From contig VGWG01000001.1 in the NCBI GenBank assembly GCA_016873675.1, positions 1 to 64,000 on the forward strand: 64,000 nt of DNA, written 5' to 3'. Numbering within the stretch: the first letter of the stretch is position 1; the number at the start of each line of letters is the position of its first letter. The position numbers and the translations under genes are program-made. The notes under the pieces were generated by a model that saw nothing but the letters and a program-made list of their open reading frames with translations, had not been told where the DNA came from and did not search any database. Origin of the DNA: Lentisphaerota bacterium. Its GTDB lineage: Bacteria > Verrucomicrobiota > Kiritimatiellia > RFP12 > JAAYNR01. This document shows positions 8,070-57,108 of this stretch, piece by piece.

Positions 8070-8837
8070 CTACTTCATGATGCCAATTCTCGGCACGGCT
8101 GCGATCAGCATTCGGGTCTGCTCGTGCTGTGGATTGCCGATCACGGCGGCGGCCGATCCCTCTTCGATGATCAGACCGTCGGACATGACGCACACGCGGT
8201 CGCACACATTGCGGACCACCGCGAGGTCGTGGGCGATCAGCACCAGAGCCAGGCCGAGGCGTCGCTGTACATCGCGCAGCAGGTTGATGATTCGGGCCTG
8301 AACCGACACATCGAGGGCGGAGACCGGCTCGTCGGCCAGCAGCACCTGCGGTTCCACGGCGAGTGCGCGCGCCAGACTGACCCGTTGGCACTGTCCACCG
8401 CTCAGCTCGCGGGGATATTGGGCGAGCGCGGCGTCGGAGAGCCCGGTCTGTTCCAGCAGCTCACGGCACCGGGCTTCAATCCCGGCGCGGCCGGTCACCA
8501 TCCTGTGTACGGTCAACGCTTCCGTCAGGATCGCGCGTACCGTCATCCTCGGATTCAGCGAGCCGGGGGCGTCCTGGAACACCATCTGTACCCGTCGCCG
8601 GAACGTCCGCCGTTTGGCCGCAGTCATGGCGTGGCAGGGACAGCCGTCAAAGATGATCTCCCCCGCCGAGGGCCGCACCAGTCCGACCACCGCCCGCACG
8701 GTCGTGGATTTGCCGCACCCGCTCGATCCGACAATGCCCAGCGTCTCGCCTGCGGCCACGCGCCAAGAGACCCCACGAACCGCTTCGACGGCGCCGTAAC
8801 AGACTTTCAGATCAGACACCGCCAGCATGATGGTCAT
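8070..8837 (-). CDS. ABC transporter ATPase, OppF/DppF-like, short form
   Basis: 255-residue nucleotide-binding subunit: Walker A GSSGCGKST near residue 37, Q-loop VFQDAPGSLNPRMTV typical of oligopeptide/dipeptide ATPases, signature LSGGQ, Walker B VLLADEP, and the H-loop in IAHDL. The C-terminus stops just after NPQHEQTRMLIAAVP, where OppF proteins normally continue for about 60 residues (oligo_HPY domain), so this is a shortened version. Its ATG overlaps the stop of the upstream VWA gene (ATGA), implying translational coupling to the ExbBD-TPR-VWA genes. The only permeases visible are oppB/oppC at 46-48 kb. It may energise those or serve its own cluster. Confidence 0.88.
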   Translation of the reverse strand: MTIMLAVSDLKVCYGAVEAVRGVSWRVAAGETLGIVGSSGCGKSTTVRAVVGLVRPSAGEIIFDGCPCHAMTAAKRRTFRRRVQMVFQDAPGSLNPRMTVRAILTEALTVHRMVTGRAGIEARCRELLEQTGLSDAALAQYPRELSGGQCQRVSLARALAVEPQVLLADEPVSALDVSVQARIINLLRDVQRRLGLALVLIAHDLAVVRNVCDRVCVMSDGLIIEEGSAAAVIGNPQHEQTRMLIAAVPRIGIMK

Positions 8838-51438: not shown

Positions 51439-52740
51439 TCACCGCCTGTCCGATACGGCGGCGAGCAGCCCGGCCATGATCAGGCAGGTGACGAGGCTGC
51501 TGCCGCCGTGGCTGATGAACGGCAGGGTGATTCCGGTGATCGGCATCGCCTTGGTGACGCCCGCGACGTTGAGGATCGTCTGGAAGGCGAGCGCTGCGGT
51601 TAGACCCGCGCCGACTGTGGTTACAAAAGGCGTGGACGCAGCGGCTGAGGCCCGCCATCCCCGTGCGAACAGGATGGCGTACACGGCGAGCAAAAGCGAG
51701 CAACCAACCAGACCGAGTTCCTCGGCCCAGGCCGCATAAATAAAATCCGACGTGACGATCGGCACGGTGTGCGGCGCACCTGCGCCGATCCCCGAACCCC
51801 ACAGGCCGCCGGAATACATCGCCGAAAGTGCCTGGAGGATCTGCCAGCCGGTGCCTGTCGGATCGGCAAACGGGTTCCGCCAGACATCCAGCCGGAGCCG
51901 CGCGTGATGCGAAACCGTCGCTGCGGCAAATCCGACGACCGCCATGCCGAGCGCACCCCACGCAAGATAACCCAGGCGGCGGGTGCTGGCAAAGAGCATC
52001 ACGATCAAGACCCCGTTCAACAGGACCAGCAGACCCAGATCGTTCAGCCGGAGAATCAGCACCATGGGCACGCTCCACAGCGCGCCCAGCACGAGCAGGT
52101 CCCGCAGGGGCGGAACGGGCCGCCCCGTTTGGGTTTCTGAGAACGCCTGCGTCCGCCGGGCGAGAAAGCTGGCGAGAAAGAGTGTCAACAAAGGCTTGAC
52201 CGCTTCCGACGGATTCAAATTGCCGGGCATGTAGACGCCGCCGCGGTACCGCCGTCCCCAGACCTCCATCGCCAGCAGCACGCCGATGGCCAGCAGATAG
52301 CAGAGCCAGCCGATACGGTTCAAGGCGGCCACCCGCTGCTTTCCCAGAAGTCCGATCACCGCGAGAAAGCCCACCAGCCCCAGTGGATAGGCGAGCCAGG
52401 CCATGGCCCCGGGGCGGGTCCCGGCATCAGTTCCCATCCGGAAGTGCATGACGATCCCGAGACCCGTCAGCAGCAGCGCCGCTGCGGGAATGACTCCGTC
52501 GCCGCGATACCCTGAAAGCCGAAGCCACACCCACACCAGCGGCAGCGATGCGGCGTACAGGCCGAAGGGAACAAGCTGATCCAACGAGGTTTTTGGATCG
52601 TGTCTGAGGGTCACGGCCAGAACGGAGACGCATGCGACCGCAGTCGTCAGAAGCACCAGCGCCAGCAGCCCGAGCGGGAGTCCTCCACCCGATGTGAGGG
52701 GCGATTGTTTGGTTCGAGGCCGTGGCGCGTGAGTCGCCAT
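51439..52740 (-). CDS. SEDS-family protein (FtsW/RodA/SpoVE-like)
   Basis: 433 residues with about ten membrane helices. Seen: NLNPSEAVKPLLTLFLASFLA (the family's QPSE-like loop reads NPSE here), LRLNDLGLLVLLNGVLIVMLFAS, SGIGAG, TSDFIYAAWAEELGLVGC, and the hallmark PITGITLPFISHGGSSL. SEDS proteins polymerise lipid II glycan chains with a class B PBP; none is in the window. It ends a cluster of exported TPR, ExbB/ExbD and VWA genes and starts 6 bp after the VWA stop. It is the cluster's only recognisable enzyme. It could be the division, elongation or a third SEDS paralogue. Confidence 0.88.
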   Translation of the reverse strand: MATHAPRPRTKQSPLTSGGGLPLGLLALVLLTTAVACVSVLAVTLRHDPKTSLDQLVPFGLYAASLPLVWVWLRLSGYRGDGVIPAAALLLTGLGIVMHFRMGTDAGTRPGAMAWLAYPLGLVGFLAVIGLLGKQRVAALNRIGWLCYLLAIGVLLAMEVWGRRYRGGVYMPGNLNPSEAVKPLLTLFLASFLARRTQAFSETQTGRPVPPLRDLLVLGALWSVPMVLILRLNDLGLLVLLNGVLIVMLFASTRRLGYLAWGALGMAVVGFAAATVSHHARLRLDVWRNPFADPTGTGWQILQALSAMYSGGLWGSGIGAGAPHTVPIVTSDFIYAAWAEELGLVGCSLLLAVYAILFARGWRASAAASTPFVTTVGAGLTAALAFQTILNVAGVTKAMPITGITLPFISHGGSSLVTCLIMAGLLAAVSDRR

Positions 52741-52746
52741 GTATCC

Positions 52747-54147
52747 CTACTGCAGTTTGCGCACCATACGGAACTGTCCCTTATACTGCTCGGACAGCCG
52801 CTTCAGGAAATCACCGCCGTCCTTGTCGATCTGATAGCCGATGCAGTGAATGCGGGGCAGCTTGAGGCCCTTGGCGACGTAAACATCCTTATAGATCAGA
52901 CTGATATGTTGCACGAAATCGGCTAGGGTCCAATTGCCGAGCGGCGGGGGCGCGGGCGGTGTCGGCCGGGGGGGGCCACCGCCGCCACCGCCGCCGATGG
53001 TTTCCGTCACCTCGGTCCAATAGCCTTCGCGGGCGGGACGGGCGGGACTGCCGCGATCAATTGGTTTCCCTTCGCGGGGCGCTGCCTTGGACGGCGGCCG
53101 CGCCGGCTGCGCGGCCTGTGGCGGCACCCAGACGCGGCGGGTGCGAACTTGGGCCGGCGGTGCGGCCGCTGCGGCCCGTTCGTAAGCCTGTAGGGCCCCC
53201 GCGTTCTGGGCTTGCCAGTCCGCCAGCATGCGGTTGCGGGCCTCACGCTGCTCTTCGGTCAACACTTTCCGCACCTGCGGCAGACCGTCGCTGATGATCA
53301 GCAGCGTGTCGGCGCCCTGAGACATCGCCGCCGCAATTGCGAGATCGAGTCGCGTCGTGCCGCCGCCCCCCTTGAGGCCATGGGCGAATCCGCTGAAATT
53401 TCCGCCGTCATGGCCCCACTGCCCTTCCGTGTTGAACGGGGTCAAAAATTGTTTGGCCTGGGTGCGGGTCTCCGGGGTGGAGAAAAGCATTTTTCCCGGT
53501 TCAAGAATCGAGCATCCGTCGGCAAAGACGATCAGGTTGAACTGCGTGCCGTCCTTGATGGCATCGATGACGTCGCCGACCCGCTGTTTGACCCGAAGGA
53601 ATCCAGCCGGTCCGCCGCGCTCCTCCTCGACCATGCTCACCGACACATCGACGCACACCGCAATCCGCTCCCCGACCGCCTGAATGCCGAAGAAGTTCAC
53701 CTGCGACACTCCCTGGCCGAAGCCCGACGTTCCGTAGCCAGAGCCGAGACCGACGCCCAAGCCCGTTCCGCTCACGGCCTTGAACTTCGGCTGGAACGTC
53801 GTGGTCACCAGTTTGGGGTCAACCTTGATGTCGGGCAGTGAAATGTTGGCCGGGCGGGCCGCCACCAGTCGCGGCACCACCTGGGGTCGGCTTGAACTGC
53901 GTTGTTTGTTTTGCACCTTAACCTTTAATTCGACTTGGCGCGGCTCGTAGGTCCGCACCGGCGGTTGCGCCACGAAGACAGTCTCTTCCTTCATCATCGA
54001 GGTGACGAGCCGGATGCCGCCAAAAATGACAGCGCCCAGCGCGTGGAGGCCCAGACTGCCGATCAGGACCAGGCGCAATACCTGCTTGCGCGACGAGGCG
54101 TGACCATCTGGATTGACCCAGCGTTTTAACGTTTTTATAAAACTCAT
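52747..54147 (-). CDS. VWA-domain protein with TonB-like membrane anchor and Pro-rich insert
   Basis: 466 residues. The N-terminal helix at about 24-48 contains Ser31-x-x-x-His35 (SLGLH), the spacing of the TonB Ser16/His20 motif. A linker rich in Pro and basic residues follows (QPPVRTYEPRQVELKVKVQNKQ). The VWA domain begins near residue 155 with a complete MIDAS: DVSVS, Thr in GGGTTRLD and Asp in IISDGLP. It is interrupted after that by about 110 residues of Ala/Pro/Gly-rich sequence, including eight consecutive Gly, then closes with IHCIGYQIDKDGGDFLKRL. Predicted inner-membrane protein with periplasmic VWA. Between exbD (25 bp) and the SEDS gene (6 bp). Confidence 0.87.
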   Translation of the reverse strand: MSFIKTLKRWVNPDGHASSRKQVLRLVLIGSLGLHALGAVIFGGIRLVTSMMKEETVFVAQPPVRTYEPRQVELKVKVQNKQRSSSRPQVVPRLVAARPANISLPDIKVDPKLVTTTFQPKFKAVSGTGLGVGLGSGYGTSGFGQGVSQVNFFGIQAVGERIAVCVDVSVSMVEEERGGPAGFLRVKQRVGDVIDAIKDGTQFNLIVFADGCSILEPGKMLFSTPETRTQAKQFLTPFNTEGQWGHDGGNFSGFAHGLKGGGGTTRLDLAIAAAMSQGADTLLIISDGLPQVRKVLTEEQREARNRMLADWQAQNAGALQAYERAAAAAPPAQVRTRRVWVPPQAAQPARPPSKAAPREGKPIDRGSPARPAREGYWTEVTETIGGGGGGGPPRPTPPAPPPLGNWTLADFVQHISLIYKDVYVAKGLKLPRIHCIGYQIDKDGGDFLKRLSEQYKGQFRMVRKLQ

Positions 54148-54172: not shown

Positions 54173-54610
54173 TTATTCGGACGCCCCAGCGAACGAGATG
54201 TCCTTGAGCTTGGCCGCCGCGCAGGCGTTCATGACGTCGATCACCCGTTGGTGCGACGTGTCGCCATCGGCCATGATGGTGATTAACGCTTTGCCGCTTG
54301 CCGCTTCCGCGCTCAGGCGGTAACGGGTGAGCGTGGCGACCAGATCGGGCAGATCGGTCGAGGTGGAGGAATCAAACGAGCGGTCGTTCAGATACACCTC
54401 CCCGGTCTTGCGGACTTCGATCATCTGCTCGTCGGGCATGTCAACCGTCGTGGCCTGTGCAATCATGCCGGGCAGCCGGATACCCAGATCGGCCTCTGGC
54501 ATGATCAGCGTGCAGGTGCAGATGAAGTAGATGAGCAGAAGAAAGGTCATATCGATCATCGGCGCCATGTCCAGATCGGGATCGCCTTGATCGGGGAGCT
54601 TCATTTTCAT
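54173..54610 (-). CDS. exbD: ExbD/TolR-family protein, second copy in cluster
   Basis: 145 residues: a single N-terminal helix with DMAPMIDMTFLLLIYFICT and the proton-carrying Asp20, then a periplasmic domain with MIEVRKTGEVYLNDRSFD and ALITIMADGDTSHQRVIDVMNA. It overlaps the preceding exbD by ATGA. Two different ExbD proteins in tandem may form a heterodimer in the ExbB pore, as in some TonB systems with paralogous ExbD. Confidence 0.92.
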   Translation of the reverse strand: MKMKLPDQGDPDLDMAPMIDMTFLLLIYFICTCTLIMPEADLGIRLPGMIAQATTVDMPDEQMIEVRKTGEVYLNDRSFDSSTSTDLPDLVATLTRYRLSAEAASGKALITIMADGDTSHQRVIDVMNACAAAKLKDISFAGASE

Positions 54611-55044
54611 TGGTCGCCCCCATTCTTGCCTGTTGAGAAGACGCCGAAGATAAAGTCGCCGATCCCCGCCTCGGCCATGGCGCTCATCACGGCTTTGACA
54701 TCCTTGTGGGGCGTCTGCTTGTCGGCGCGGAGGTACACCTTCAGATCCGGTTCCTGTTTCAGACGTTCCGTAACCAATCGCTTCAATTCGGCGACCGTCA
54801 CCGGTTCGAGGCCGCTGAAGATCCGGAAGGACGTCCCCTCCTGAGCAATGTTTACCGTCCAGCGGGCGGGCCGATCTTTGGGAATCACGCCGCGATCCGC
54901 GACCGGAATGTCCAGATCCTTGCTCCGGCTCGCGCTCATGTGAGAGGCCGTCATGAAGAAGATGATCAGCAGAAACACCATGTCAATCATCGGCGCCATC
55001 TGCACCTTGGTCTCTTCTTTATCATCCATCGGTATGCGCATCAC
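54607..55044 (-). CDS. exbD: ExbD/TolR-family protein, first copy in cluster
   Basis: 145 residues: helix with QMAPMIDMVFLLIIFFMTAS and Asp21, then a periplasmic domain with WTVNIAQEGTSFRIF and LKVYLRADKQTPHKDVKAVMSAMAEAG. It starts 38 bp after exbB and ends in an ATGA overlap with the second exbD. It resembles the copy at 54173 in layout but the periplasmic domains are clearly diverged. Confidence 0.92.
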   Translation of the reverse strand: MMRIPMDDKEETKVQMAPMIDMVFLLIIFFMTASHMSASRSKDLDIPVADRGVIPKDRPARWTVNIAQEGTSFRIFSGLEPVTVAELKRLVTERLKQEPDLKVYLRADKQTPHKDVKAVMSAMAEAGIGDFIFGVFSTGKNGGDQ

Positions 55045-55082: not shown

Positions 55083-55895
55083 TTACAGGGTTCGTCCGAT
55101 TGGGGCTGACGGGGCGGCGGCAGGCGAGCTTTCCTCAACCAGGCCGCCACACTTGAGCGCCATGCCGAGGTGGTGCGAAAGATTGCCGAGAAGGAGCGAC
55201 ACCCGGGCGACGTTGCTGGTGAATTGCGCCTTGAAATAGAAATAGGTGAACATGGATGGAATGGCCACAATCAAGCCGGCCGCAGTCGTGATCATCGCCT
55301 CGCCGATGTTCGCCGCCAGTTTCTCGGGGGAGCCCATGGCACCCAGGCCGATTTTGTCGAACGCCCCGATCATGCCGGTCACGGTTCCGAGCAATCCCAG
55401 CATCGGCGCGATCTGCGCCACCAGCGAAAGGTGTCCAAGCGGCTTCTGCCATTCCGAGACCTCTTCCACGGATGCCTCCTCCATCGCTTTTTCAAACGAG
55501 GCCACATCGGCGTCCTGACTGCTTTCGAGCCGTATCAGGCCAGCCCTCAGGATCGTCGTCAGCATGCAGGGTGCGCCTGAGCACACGGCGCTCGCGGTCT
55601 TGAAATCGAGCGCGCCGAACGCCTTGCGCAGCGTCGGCTGAATGTCCGGCCGGACCATCTTTTCAAGCCGATACTGGATGGCGCAATAGACCGTCAGTCC
55701 GATCCCGAGCACCGAACAGAGGCCGATCGGCCACATGACCGGTCCGCCGACGTTCCACAAGTCCAGCAAAGACTTGCCGGCCTTGGGCGCCGCTGATCCG
55801 CCGTCGCCGCCGGTTTGCGCGTGTACCACGAGCACCGCCACGGTCGCCAAAAACATCATCACCCCAAGCTTTACCTGACTTTTCCCGTTCATCAT
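55083..55895 (-). CDS. exbB: ExbB/TolQ-family proton-channel protein with signal peptide
   Basis: 270 residues. A signal sequence (LGVMMFLATVAVLVVHA) and a short Gly/Ala-rich segment are followed by three helices: GGPVMWPIGLCSVLGIGLTVYCAI, LGHLSLVAQIAPMLGLLGTVTGMIGAF and GEAMITTAAGLIVAIPSMFTYFYF, the conserved ExbB pair. GAAGGAG lies 5 nt before the ATG at 55895; a second ATG follows directly. Same architecture as the exbB at 13408, so the two clusters use the same ExbB subtype. Confidence 0.92.
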   Translation of the reverse strand: MMNGKSQVKLGVMMFLATVAVLVVHAQTGGDGGSAAPKAGKSLLDLWNVGGPVMWPIGLCSVLGIGLTVYCAIQYRLEKMVRPDIQPTLRKAFGALDFKTASAVCSGAPCMLTTILRAGLIRLESSQDADVASFEKAMEEASVEEVSEWQKPLGHLSLVAQIAPMLGLLGTVTGMIGAFDKIGLGAMGSPEKLAANIGEAMITTAAGLIVAIPSMFTYFYFKAQFTSNVARVSLLLGNLSHHLGMALKCGGLVEESSPAAAPSAPIGRTL

Positions 55896-55944
55896 CCTCA
55901 CTCCTTCATCCTGTTGTCACACGAGACGCGCCGCTGGGGCGTCG

Positions 55945-57108
55945 TCAGAAATTACCGGATGCAACTGCTTTCGGCGCGCCGACTGTGGTTTTCGGTTCGG
56001 CAGGGGTTTTGAGCAGTTCATCGGCCAGCTTGTTCATGTCTTCGGTCATATTGAAGAACACATTCTCAATCGGCGTTTTTTCGGGTTCGAGCGTCTTTTT
56101 ACCGTCCATAATCGCTTGGAGGCCGATTCGAGCGTCGGCCGCCCAGTCGGTTCCCGTGAAAAGAACAGCGACCTCGTAGTACACGTCGCGGGCGCGGTGG
56201 TGCTCGCCGAGCGCCGTGTAGCAGTCGGCCGACAGAAGCAGAGCCGAGGGGAAGGTTTCAGCGTCCTTGTCGGCAAAGACGATCGAATTGACGATGGCAT
56301 CGATCGCTTCGCGTGTCTTGCCGGCGCGGCGGAACAGTTCGGCTTGAACGAGCCAGTAGTGGCCGTAGGCGGGATCTCCGGGATCCGGATTTTCGACCCG
56401 CTTGAGGTTGGTGGCGGCCGCCTCGTCCTTGCCCTGAGAGAGCAGGGCGCGACATCCCTTAAGGATCGCCACGGGGGCGAGCGGCGACCAGTCGGCGCGT
56501 CCGGCGTCGCGAAACACATCGTACGCGGCTTCGTATTGCTTCATCGCCCGCTCGCGGGTGGCCGCGTCAGACGCCGCGCGCCGCTCGCGGTCAGCCGATA
56601 AGATCATGTACGTGCCCAGATCCATGGCCAGGTCGAGACCGTTGTTGTCCGCCAGATCGAGGTAGGGAAGCGCCACGCGCAGGCTCGGAGCCAGCGTCCG
56701 CACGGCGGCCGCCCAGTCATAGTCCCGCACGGCGGCGGACAGCGCCGCGTGGTCGTAGTCAAGGGCAAACTCACACCGCAACACCCGCGCCTTATCGACT
56801 TGGAAGGACGCGGAATCGCCACGGGCCGCCTGCGCCAGCAGCGTTTGTGCGGTGTGCCCCAGCAGGACGACTTCGCGGTTGATGGTCGCGTCCTTGTCGC
56901 CTTCGCGGATCAGGAGCCGGGCCTTGATCGGCGGGAGCGTCACGGGCCGCGGAGCGGCCACCGGGGTTTGCGCATGCAAAACCCCGCAGACGGCGATCGC
57001 CAGCGCGGCGAGAGTGCGCGTGCGGAACGCGCACCGCGAACATGCCCCCGCCAAAATCGGTTTGGCCATTCGGTCCGTGCGTACGGTGTGATGGGCCTGA
57101 GTCATCAT
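55945..57108 (-). CDS. Exported TPR-like protein
   Basis: 387 residues. A signal segment near 28-47 (RTRTLAALAIAVCGVLHAQ), then helical repeats such as AMKQYEAAYDVFRDAG, YWLVQAELFRRAGKTREAIDAIV and ALLLSADCYTALGEHHRARDVYYEV, a degenerate TPR array. The C-terminal 50 residues are low complexity. The ATG at 57108 overlaps the previous stop (ATGA). It is placed between a larger TPR protein and exbB; a periplasmic adaptor role is inferred. The first ATG of an MM pair was chosen. Confidence 0.8.
   Translation of the reverse strand: MMTQAHHTVRTDRMAKPILAGACSRCAFRTRTLAALAIAVCGVLHAQTPVAAPRPVTLPPIKARLLIREGDKDATINREVVLLGHTAQTLLAQAARGDSASFQVDKARVLRCEFALDYDHAALSAAVRDYDWAAAVRTLAPSLRVALPYLDLADNNGLDLAMDLGTYMILSADRERRAASDAATRERAMKQYEAAYDVFRDAGRADWSPLAPVAILKGCRALLSQGKDEAAATNLKRVENPDPGDPAYGHYWLVQAELFRRAGKTREAIDAIVNSIVFADKDAETFPSALLLSADCYTALGEHHRARDVYYEVAVLFTGTDWAADARIGLQAIMDGKKTLEPEKTPIENVFFNMTEDMNKLADELLKTPAEPKTTVGAPKAVASGNF

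Follow-up and report, generated by a model that had tools for sequence, protein, structure and literature searches.

The VWA protein that closes an ExbB-ExbD operon in the window (the whole stretch of 64,000 nucleotides analyzed here, from a Lentisphaerota bacterium) most probably acts as a TonB/TolA-like force transducer on its own motor; a VWA domain stands where TonB and TolA have their C-terminal domain. We put the probability of this reading at about 80%. The evidence comes from the anatomy of the protein, the conservation of its anchor residues, the gene order and a His/Ser covariation between the VWA protein and ExbB. Judged by its sequence, the protein would belong to the SHLS vWA force transducers, a class proposed in 2025 by Williams-Jones et al. 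that includes this gene order (PMC12204202). The accessible part of that paper reports no deletion phenotypes for the class, and our literature search found no later work on it. What is new here is the tree-measured residue conservation, the His-less lineages with matching ExbB changes, the fusion to a kinase, the presence in this window of a second VWA family that shares the anchor, and the additional genes for secreted proteins that follow the VWA gene in relatives. The accessible part of the 2025 paper makes no mention of the His-less lineages, the covariation with the ExbB Ser or the kinase fusion.

The genes follow each other on the minus strand in the order TPR-TPR-ExbB-ExbD1-ExbD2-VWA, and the VWA reading frame starts with ATG (Table 1). 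A reading made from the sequence only had placed this gene in an ExbBD cluster, and exbB and two exbD genes indeed lie directly upstream of it. The same order, with the large TPR gene ahead of the smaller one, recurs in nearly all sufficiently long related loci. The exceptions were a goat-rumen relative (L020), where the VWA gene is present without motor genes nearby, and genome G315, where it precedes the TPR genes.

Table 1. Operon genes of the window and parts of the VWA protein (window positions; residue numbers refer to the VWA protein unless another is named)
Feature	Positions	Strand	Remarks
Large TPR protein, 947 aa	57105..59948	-	signal-like N-terminus
Smaller TPR protein	55945..57105	-	likely start with signal-like N-terminus near 57069-57108
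ExbB/TolQ-like motor subunit	55083..55901	-	PF01618, E 1e-28; Ser63 is the equivalent of E. coli ExbB Ser34
ExbD1, first ExbD/TolR-like subunit	54607..55044	-	PF02472, E 1.7e-24
ExbD2, second ExbD/TolR-like subunit	54173..54610	-	PF02472, E 1e-20
VWA protein (probable force transducer), 466 aa	52747..54147	-	cytoplasmic N-terminus, TM helix, linker, VWA domain
N-terminal helix, residues 19-52	53992..54093	-	S31 and H35 (TonB/TolA-type docking residues); from model and tree conservation
Disordered linker, residues 56-145	53713..53982	-	highly conserved YEPR-VE-KVKVQ--RSSSRP (candidate motor box or partner site)
VWA domain, residues 148-466	52750..53706	-	MIDAS D167/S169/S171/T265/D287
Insert after beta-4, residues 291-405	52933..53277	-	helix pair, two strands, Pro-rich tail, seven-Gly run

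A SEDS-family (FtsW/RodA-like) gene, at 51439-52740, begins a few bases past the VWA gene. We dropped it as a functional clue because this neighbour was seen in the same genus only. Behind the VWA gene, 14 related loci (L022-L060) carry a small protein whose N-terminus resembles a signal sequence and which, in the member tested, matched no Pfam family, and eight loci of the same set carry a longer protein, one of them with a PEGA domain. A search of the window's genome for the small secreted protein, run without a positive control, gave no match.

We modelled the structure with AlphaFold2 on a 25-sequence alignment. The model shows one continuous helix at residues 19-52 (about 33-34 residues), a linker with pLDDT mostly below 50 and a confident VWA domain from residue 148. 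Pfam matched VWA_2 to the 466-aa protein below the cut-off only, and Foldseek against the PDB returned VWA-domain matches including the integrin alpha-1 I domain, VWF A2 and LapA. The MIDAS is complete, as had been claimed, with all five residues in place. It is intact in the close members; in distant homologues, where the alignment is less sure, MIDAS residues are often missing while the Ser/His pair stays. Metal binding may therefore not be general.

The sequence-only reading had also described an insert of about 110 low-complexity residues, including eight Gly in a row, inside the VWA fold on the MIDAS side. The location was right: the insert comes after beta-4, and the fold topology puts it on the MIDAS side. 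Its size and composition were close as well (about 115 residues, rich in Ala, Pro, Arg and Gly), and the Gly run has to be corrected to seven (385-391). Low complexity describes it poorly, since it is partly folded and has conserved residues. The model places helices at 298-314 and 316-328 and strands at 333-341 and 376-384, mostly with pLDDT of 70-90, and V339, P342 and E359 are invariant in the 25 homologues. Relatives have Gly runs of 1 to 7 residues, and in a sister group that shares the motor genes the insert site is only 34-35 residues long and the MIDAS is intact. Thus, we regard the insert as a family elaboration that lies outside the anchor design.

The window encodes another VWA protein, at position 8834, which had been called very different in sequence, and the similarity is indeed negligible. 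The two proteins match at 21% over 82 residues (E 0.027), in the VWA part only, and TIGR03788 is matched by the 8834 protein and not by the one studied here. In the 8834 family, SxxxH stands in the N-terminal helix in 29 of 30 loci; the remaining locus has an ORF without such a helix, probably because its N-terminus is missing. Among the 14 VWA_2 matches in the host genome, the 8834 protein, beside exbBD, is the only one with SxxxH in a predicted TM helix. Two different families thus carry the same TonB-type anchor, each beside exbB/exbD, as had been proposed. The general design drawn from this pair, a VWA transducer on an ExbBD motor, is also supported, and it had already been published in 2025 (accessible part of PMC12204202). 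On contig C46 of the host genome itself (G000; L074:5992-10794), a 1601-aa VWA protein lies directly behind another exbB/exbD pair and has no Ser/His anchor; adjacency to exbD alone therefore does not predict the motif.

In the anchor helix, Ser31 and His35 are both where the sequence-only reading had seen them, and its view that the motif is unlikely to be chance was borne out. H35 is retained in 65 of 69 nonredundant homologues and S31 in 59 of 69. On a tree built with these two columns left out, H35 changed three times and S31 four times, against 6-27 changes in each of the other helix columns. In a helix that otherwise evolves fast, no other position changes as slowly as these two. The six closest members share only M1, S31, L32 and H35 as invariant residues before position 55. 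Absence of the motif from close homologues had been named as a refutation; it is conserved in close and distant homologues alike. One homologue in genome G133 (L069; profile E 4e-40) has the His at its own residue 35 and may be the Tichowtungia protein of the 2025 paper. A few members that have lost Ser as well as His still carry the operon, so the motif is not strictly indispensable.

The complete SHLS motif (S-x3-H-x6-L-x3-S) is not present, as F42 and R46 replace the Leu and the second Ser. Neither position is conserved in the homologues, where the commonest residues are F and V. This is in line with a study of TolA, whose H22 lies on TolQ Ser28: H22A abolishes the TolQ pull-down and function, and the tested L29A and S33A do not (PMC12965293).

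Cryo-EM of TonB-ExbBD places TonB S16/H20 on ExbB Ser34/Trp38, and cryo-EM of TolAQR places TolA S18/H22 against TolQ Ser28 on TM1 (PMC12215075). For this reason we inspected the equivalent ExbB column, Ser63. It was matched to E. coli Ser34 through intermediate ExbBs sharing an MWPxxxCS motif; the alignment of TM1 to E. coli depends on these intermediates, and one alignment shifted the column. H35 is replaced in 4/69 sequences: L027 (Tyr), L078/L047 (Thr), L079/L052 and L029 (both Leu). The ExbB gene was at hand for three of the four, and in each of them Ser63 has been replaced, by Asn, by Phe (in L078) and by Ala. Members with the His keep Ser63 in 52 of 53 cases, and the one that does not, L025 (Asn), is sister to L027. 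When 532 ExbB, ExbD1 and ExbD2 columns were scanned blind, Ser63 gave the top association with His loss (Fisher p 1.4e-4; next column, 4.3e-3). Counting on the tree gave three separate His events and three Ser63 events, and, judged by branch length, the three His losses would all land on non-Ser branches by chance with a probability of about 2.6e-4. Three members added later keep the His, with Ser at the Ser63 position in two and Cys in one. Since the events are few, and a tree-based sign test on the His/Ser63 pair cannot reach significance with three of them, we take the covariation as good support and not as proof.

The sequence-only reading had suggested looking for co-evolution between this helix and the two ExbD helices. 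Co-evolution exists, and its partner is Ser63 in ExbB TM1 instead; ExbD columns were more weakly associated with the anchor (best ExbD2 Arg98, p 0.004). The equivalent of E. coli Trp38, a further contact of TonB/TolA, is Ile, Val or Leu here. This speaks against the docking model, and as the position is not conserved it was of no use as a docking test. In one clade (L026, L030, L031, L038, L039, L172), the ExbB TM3 proline is Thr or Ala, and Ser63 and the VWA His are kept; in E. coli this is Pro190, the residue that connects docking site and pore in the cryo-EM structures.

Other explanations would read the same helix differently. If it were a cleaved signal peptide, the VWA protein would be free in the periplasm, and the basic N-terminus followed by a hydrophobic stretch does resemble one. 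However, the predicted helix runs on for 34 residues, its Ser and His are conserved, and the homologues have long N-termini in which a positively charged sequence of variable length stands before the anchor. In genome G315 (L080:6845-9322), a protein kinase (PF00069, E 9.8e-39) is fused N-terminal to the helix-linker-VWA unit, and a TPR-TPR-ExbB-ExbD-ExbD cluster lies downstream of this gene. The N-terminus of the G315 member is therefore cytoplasmic (N-in), and a cleaved signal peptide is excluded for it. Taking the basic N-terminus, the helix of about 33 residues and the kinase fusion together, this attempt at refutation failed, and we consider a signal peptide very improbable. The chance that the helix is a transpore helix, replacing ExbD inside the pentamer as in a second vWA family described by Williams-Jones et al. 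(2025), is close to nil. VWA proteins of that kind do occur beside tolQ genes, and in the accessible part of the paper (PMC12204202) their TM helix carries a conserved Asp, tolR/exbD is absent from the neighbourhood and the Ser/His motif is lacking. In our case, helix 19-52 has no acidic residue and the operon already holds two exbD genes with the Asp, so that the sequence itself contradicts a transpore role.

Even with an anchored helix, the Ser/His conservation and covariation might come from generic helix packing, or from drift common to a few divergent lineages, instead of docking on ExbB TM1. His was lost only three times, and Cys occupies the ExbB site in one relative that has the His. 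Against this, Ser63 is the single best of the 532 columns and had been named beforehand by the cryo-EM of homologues; we hold packing or drift to be quite unlikely. It is also unlikely, if less so, that the VWA protein is a membrane-anchored adhesion or scaffold protein beside the motor, with a Ser/His pair that assembles the complex and transmits no force. VWA domains are binding modules, the Foldseek matches are mostly adhesion domains, and the MIDAS is intact in close members. Energy use, however, is favoured by the constant association with a complete proton motor that retains its pore threonines, and by the recurrence of the anchor in two VWA families that are unrelated.

The SHLS vWA transducers (Tichowtungia family, PVC bacteria), as described in the accessible part of PMC12204202, have a TM helix with Ser/His, a disordered linker of about 100 residues and a C-terminal VWA domain, and are encoded downstream of TPR, tolQ-like and two different tolR-like genes. 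All of this is found here, with residues 56-145 as the linker, and the paper likewise names His35. It also predicts a beta strand, the motor box, in the linker; the counterpart here, VELKVKV (72-78), is conserved and beta-prone, and our model shows no strand there. The close members differ from the published description in that their TPR genes come as a pair and their VWA domain carries a conserved insert. YfbK and TIGR03788-like proteins have the VWA fold in common with our protein, and the paper likens the transducer fold to YfbK, which it describes as free in the periplasm, whereas the protein studied here is anchored.

With TonB, the VWA protein shares an N-in helix with S-x3-H, a long linker and the association with ExbBD. 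Unlike TonB, it lacks conservation of the SHLS Leu and second Ser, has its own motor with two ExbDs and has no transporter in the operon. With TolA, it shares the S-x3-H helix, which contacts TolQ in TolA, and a disordered segment behind the helix; in contrast to TolA, no TolB/Pal genes adjoin. Pfam and NCBIfam gave no match to the C-terminal domain of TonB or TolA, and the protein has the VWA fold instead.

We propose that the N-in helix would dock on TM1 of its own ExbB pentamer, with S31 and H35 packing against ExbB Ser63. Docking on TM1 is well supported; the geometry itself we infer. By homology with TonB and TolA, force would come from the proton motive force: proton flow through ExbB-ExbD1-ExbD2 would change or pull the helix together with the conserved segment that lies immediately outside the membrane, and the linker of about 90 residues would pass this motion on to the VWA domain. 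The partner that the domain may then bind would be periplasmic or sit at the outer membrane. As to that outer partner, our guess is that the two co-encoded TPR proteins are the most likely candidates, possibly via the MIDAS face.

We see an even chance that the Ser/His anchor, together with ExbB Ser63, makes up a single exchangeable plug, rewired in at least three lineages (Tyr, Leu or Thr at VWA position 35, with Asn, Ala or Phe at ExbB position 63). The rewired lineages keep the whole operon, and would therefore be natural compensated versions of the motor-transducer contact. If this is true, nature offers compensated contacts, whereas TonB/TolA studies have mainly had loss-of-function mutants. 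Evolution alone supports the docking of Ser/His on ExbB, as seen in E. coli cryo-EM, as a general plug for transducers whose outer ends differ entirely. With the His-less lineages and the kinase fusion, it becomes testable what this plug has to do and whether transducers can be regulated from the cytoplasm.
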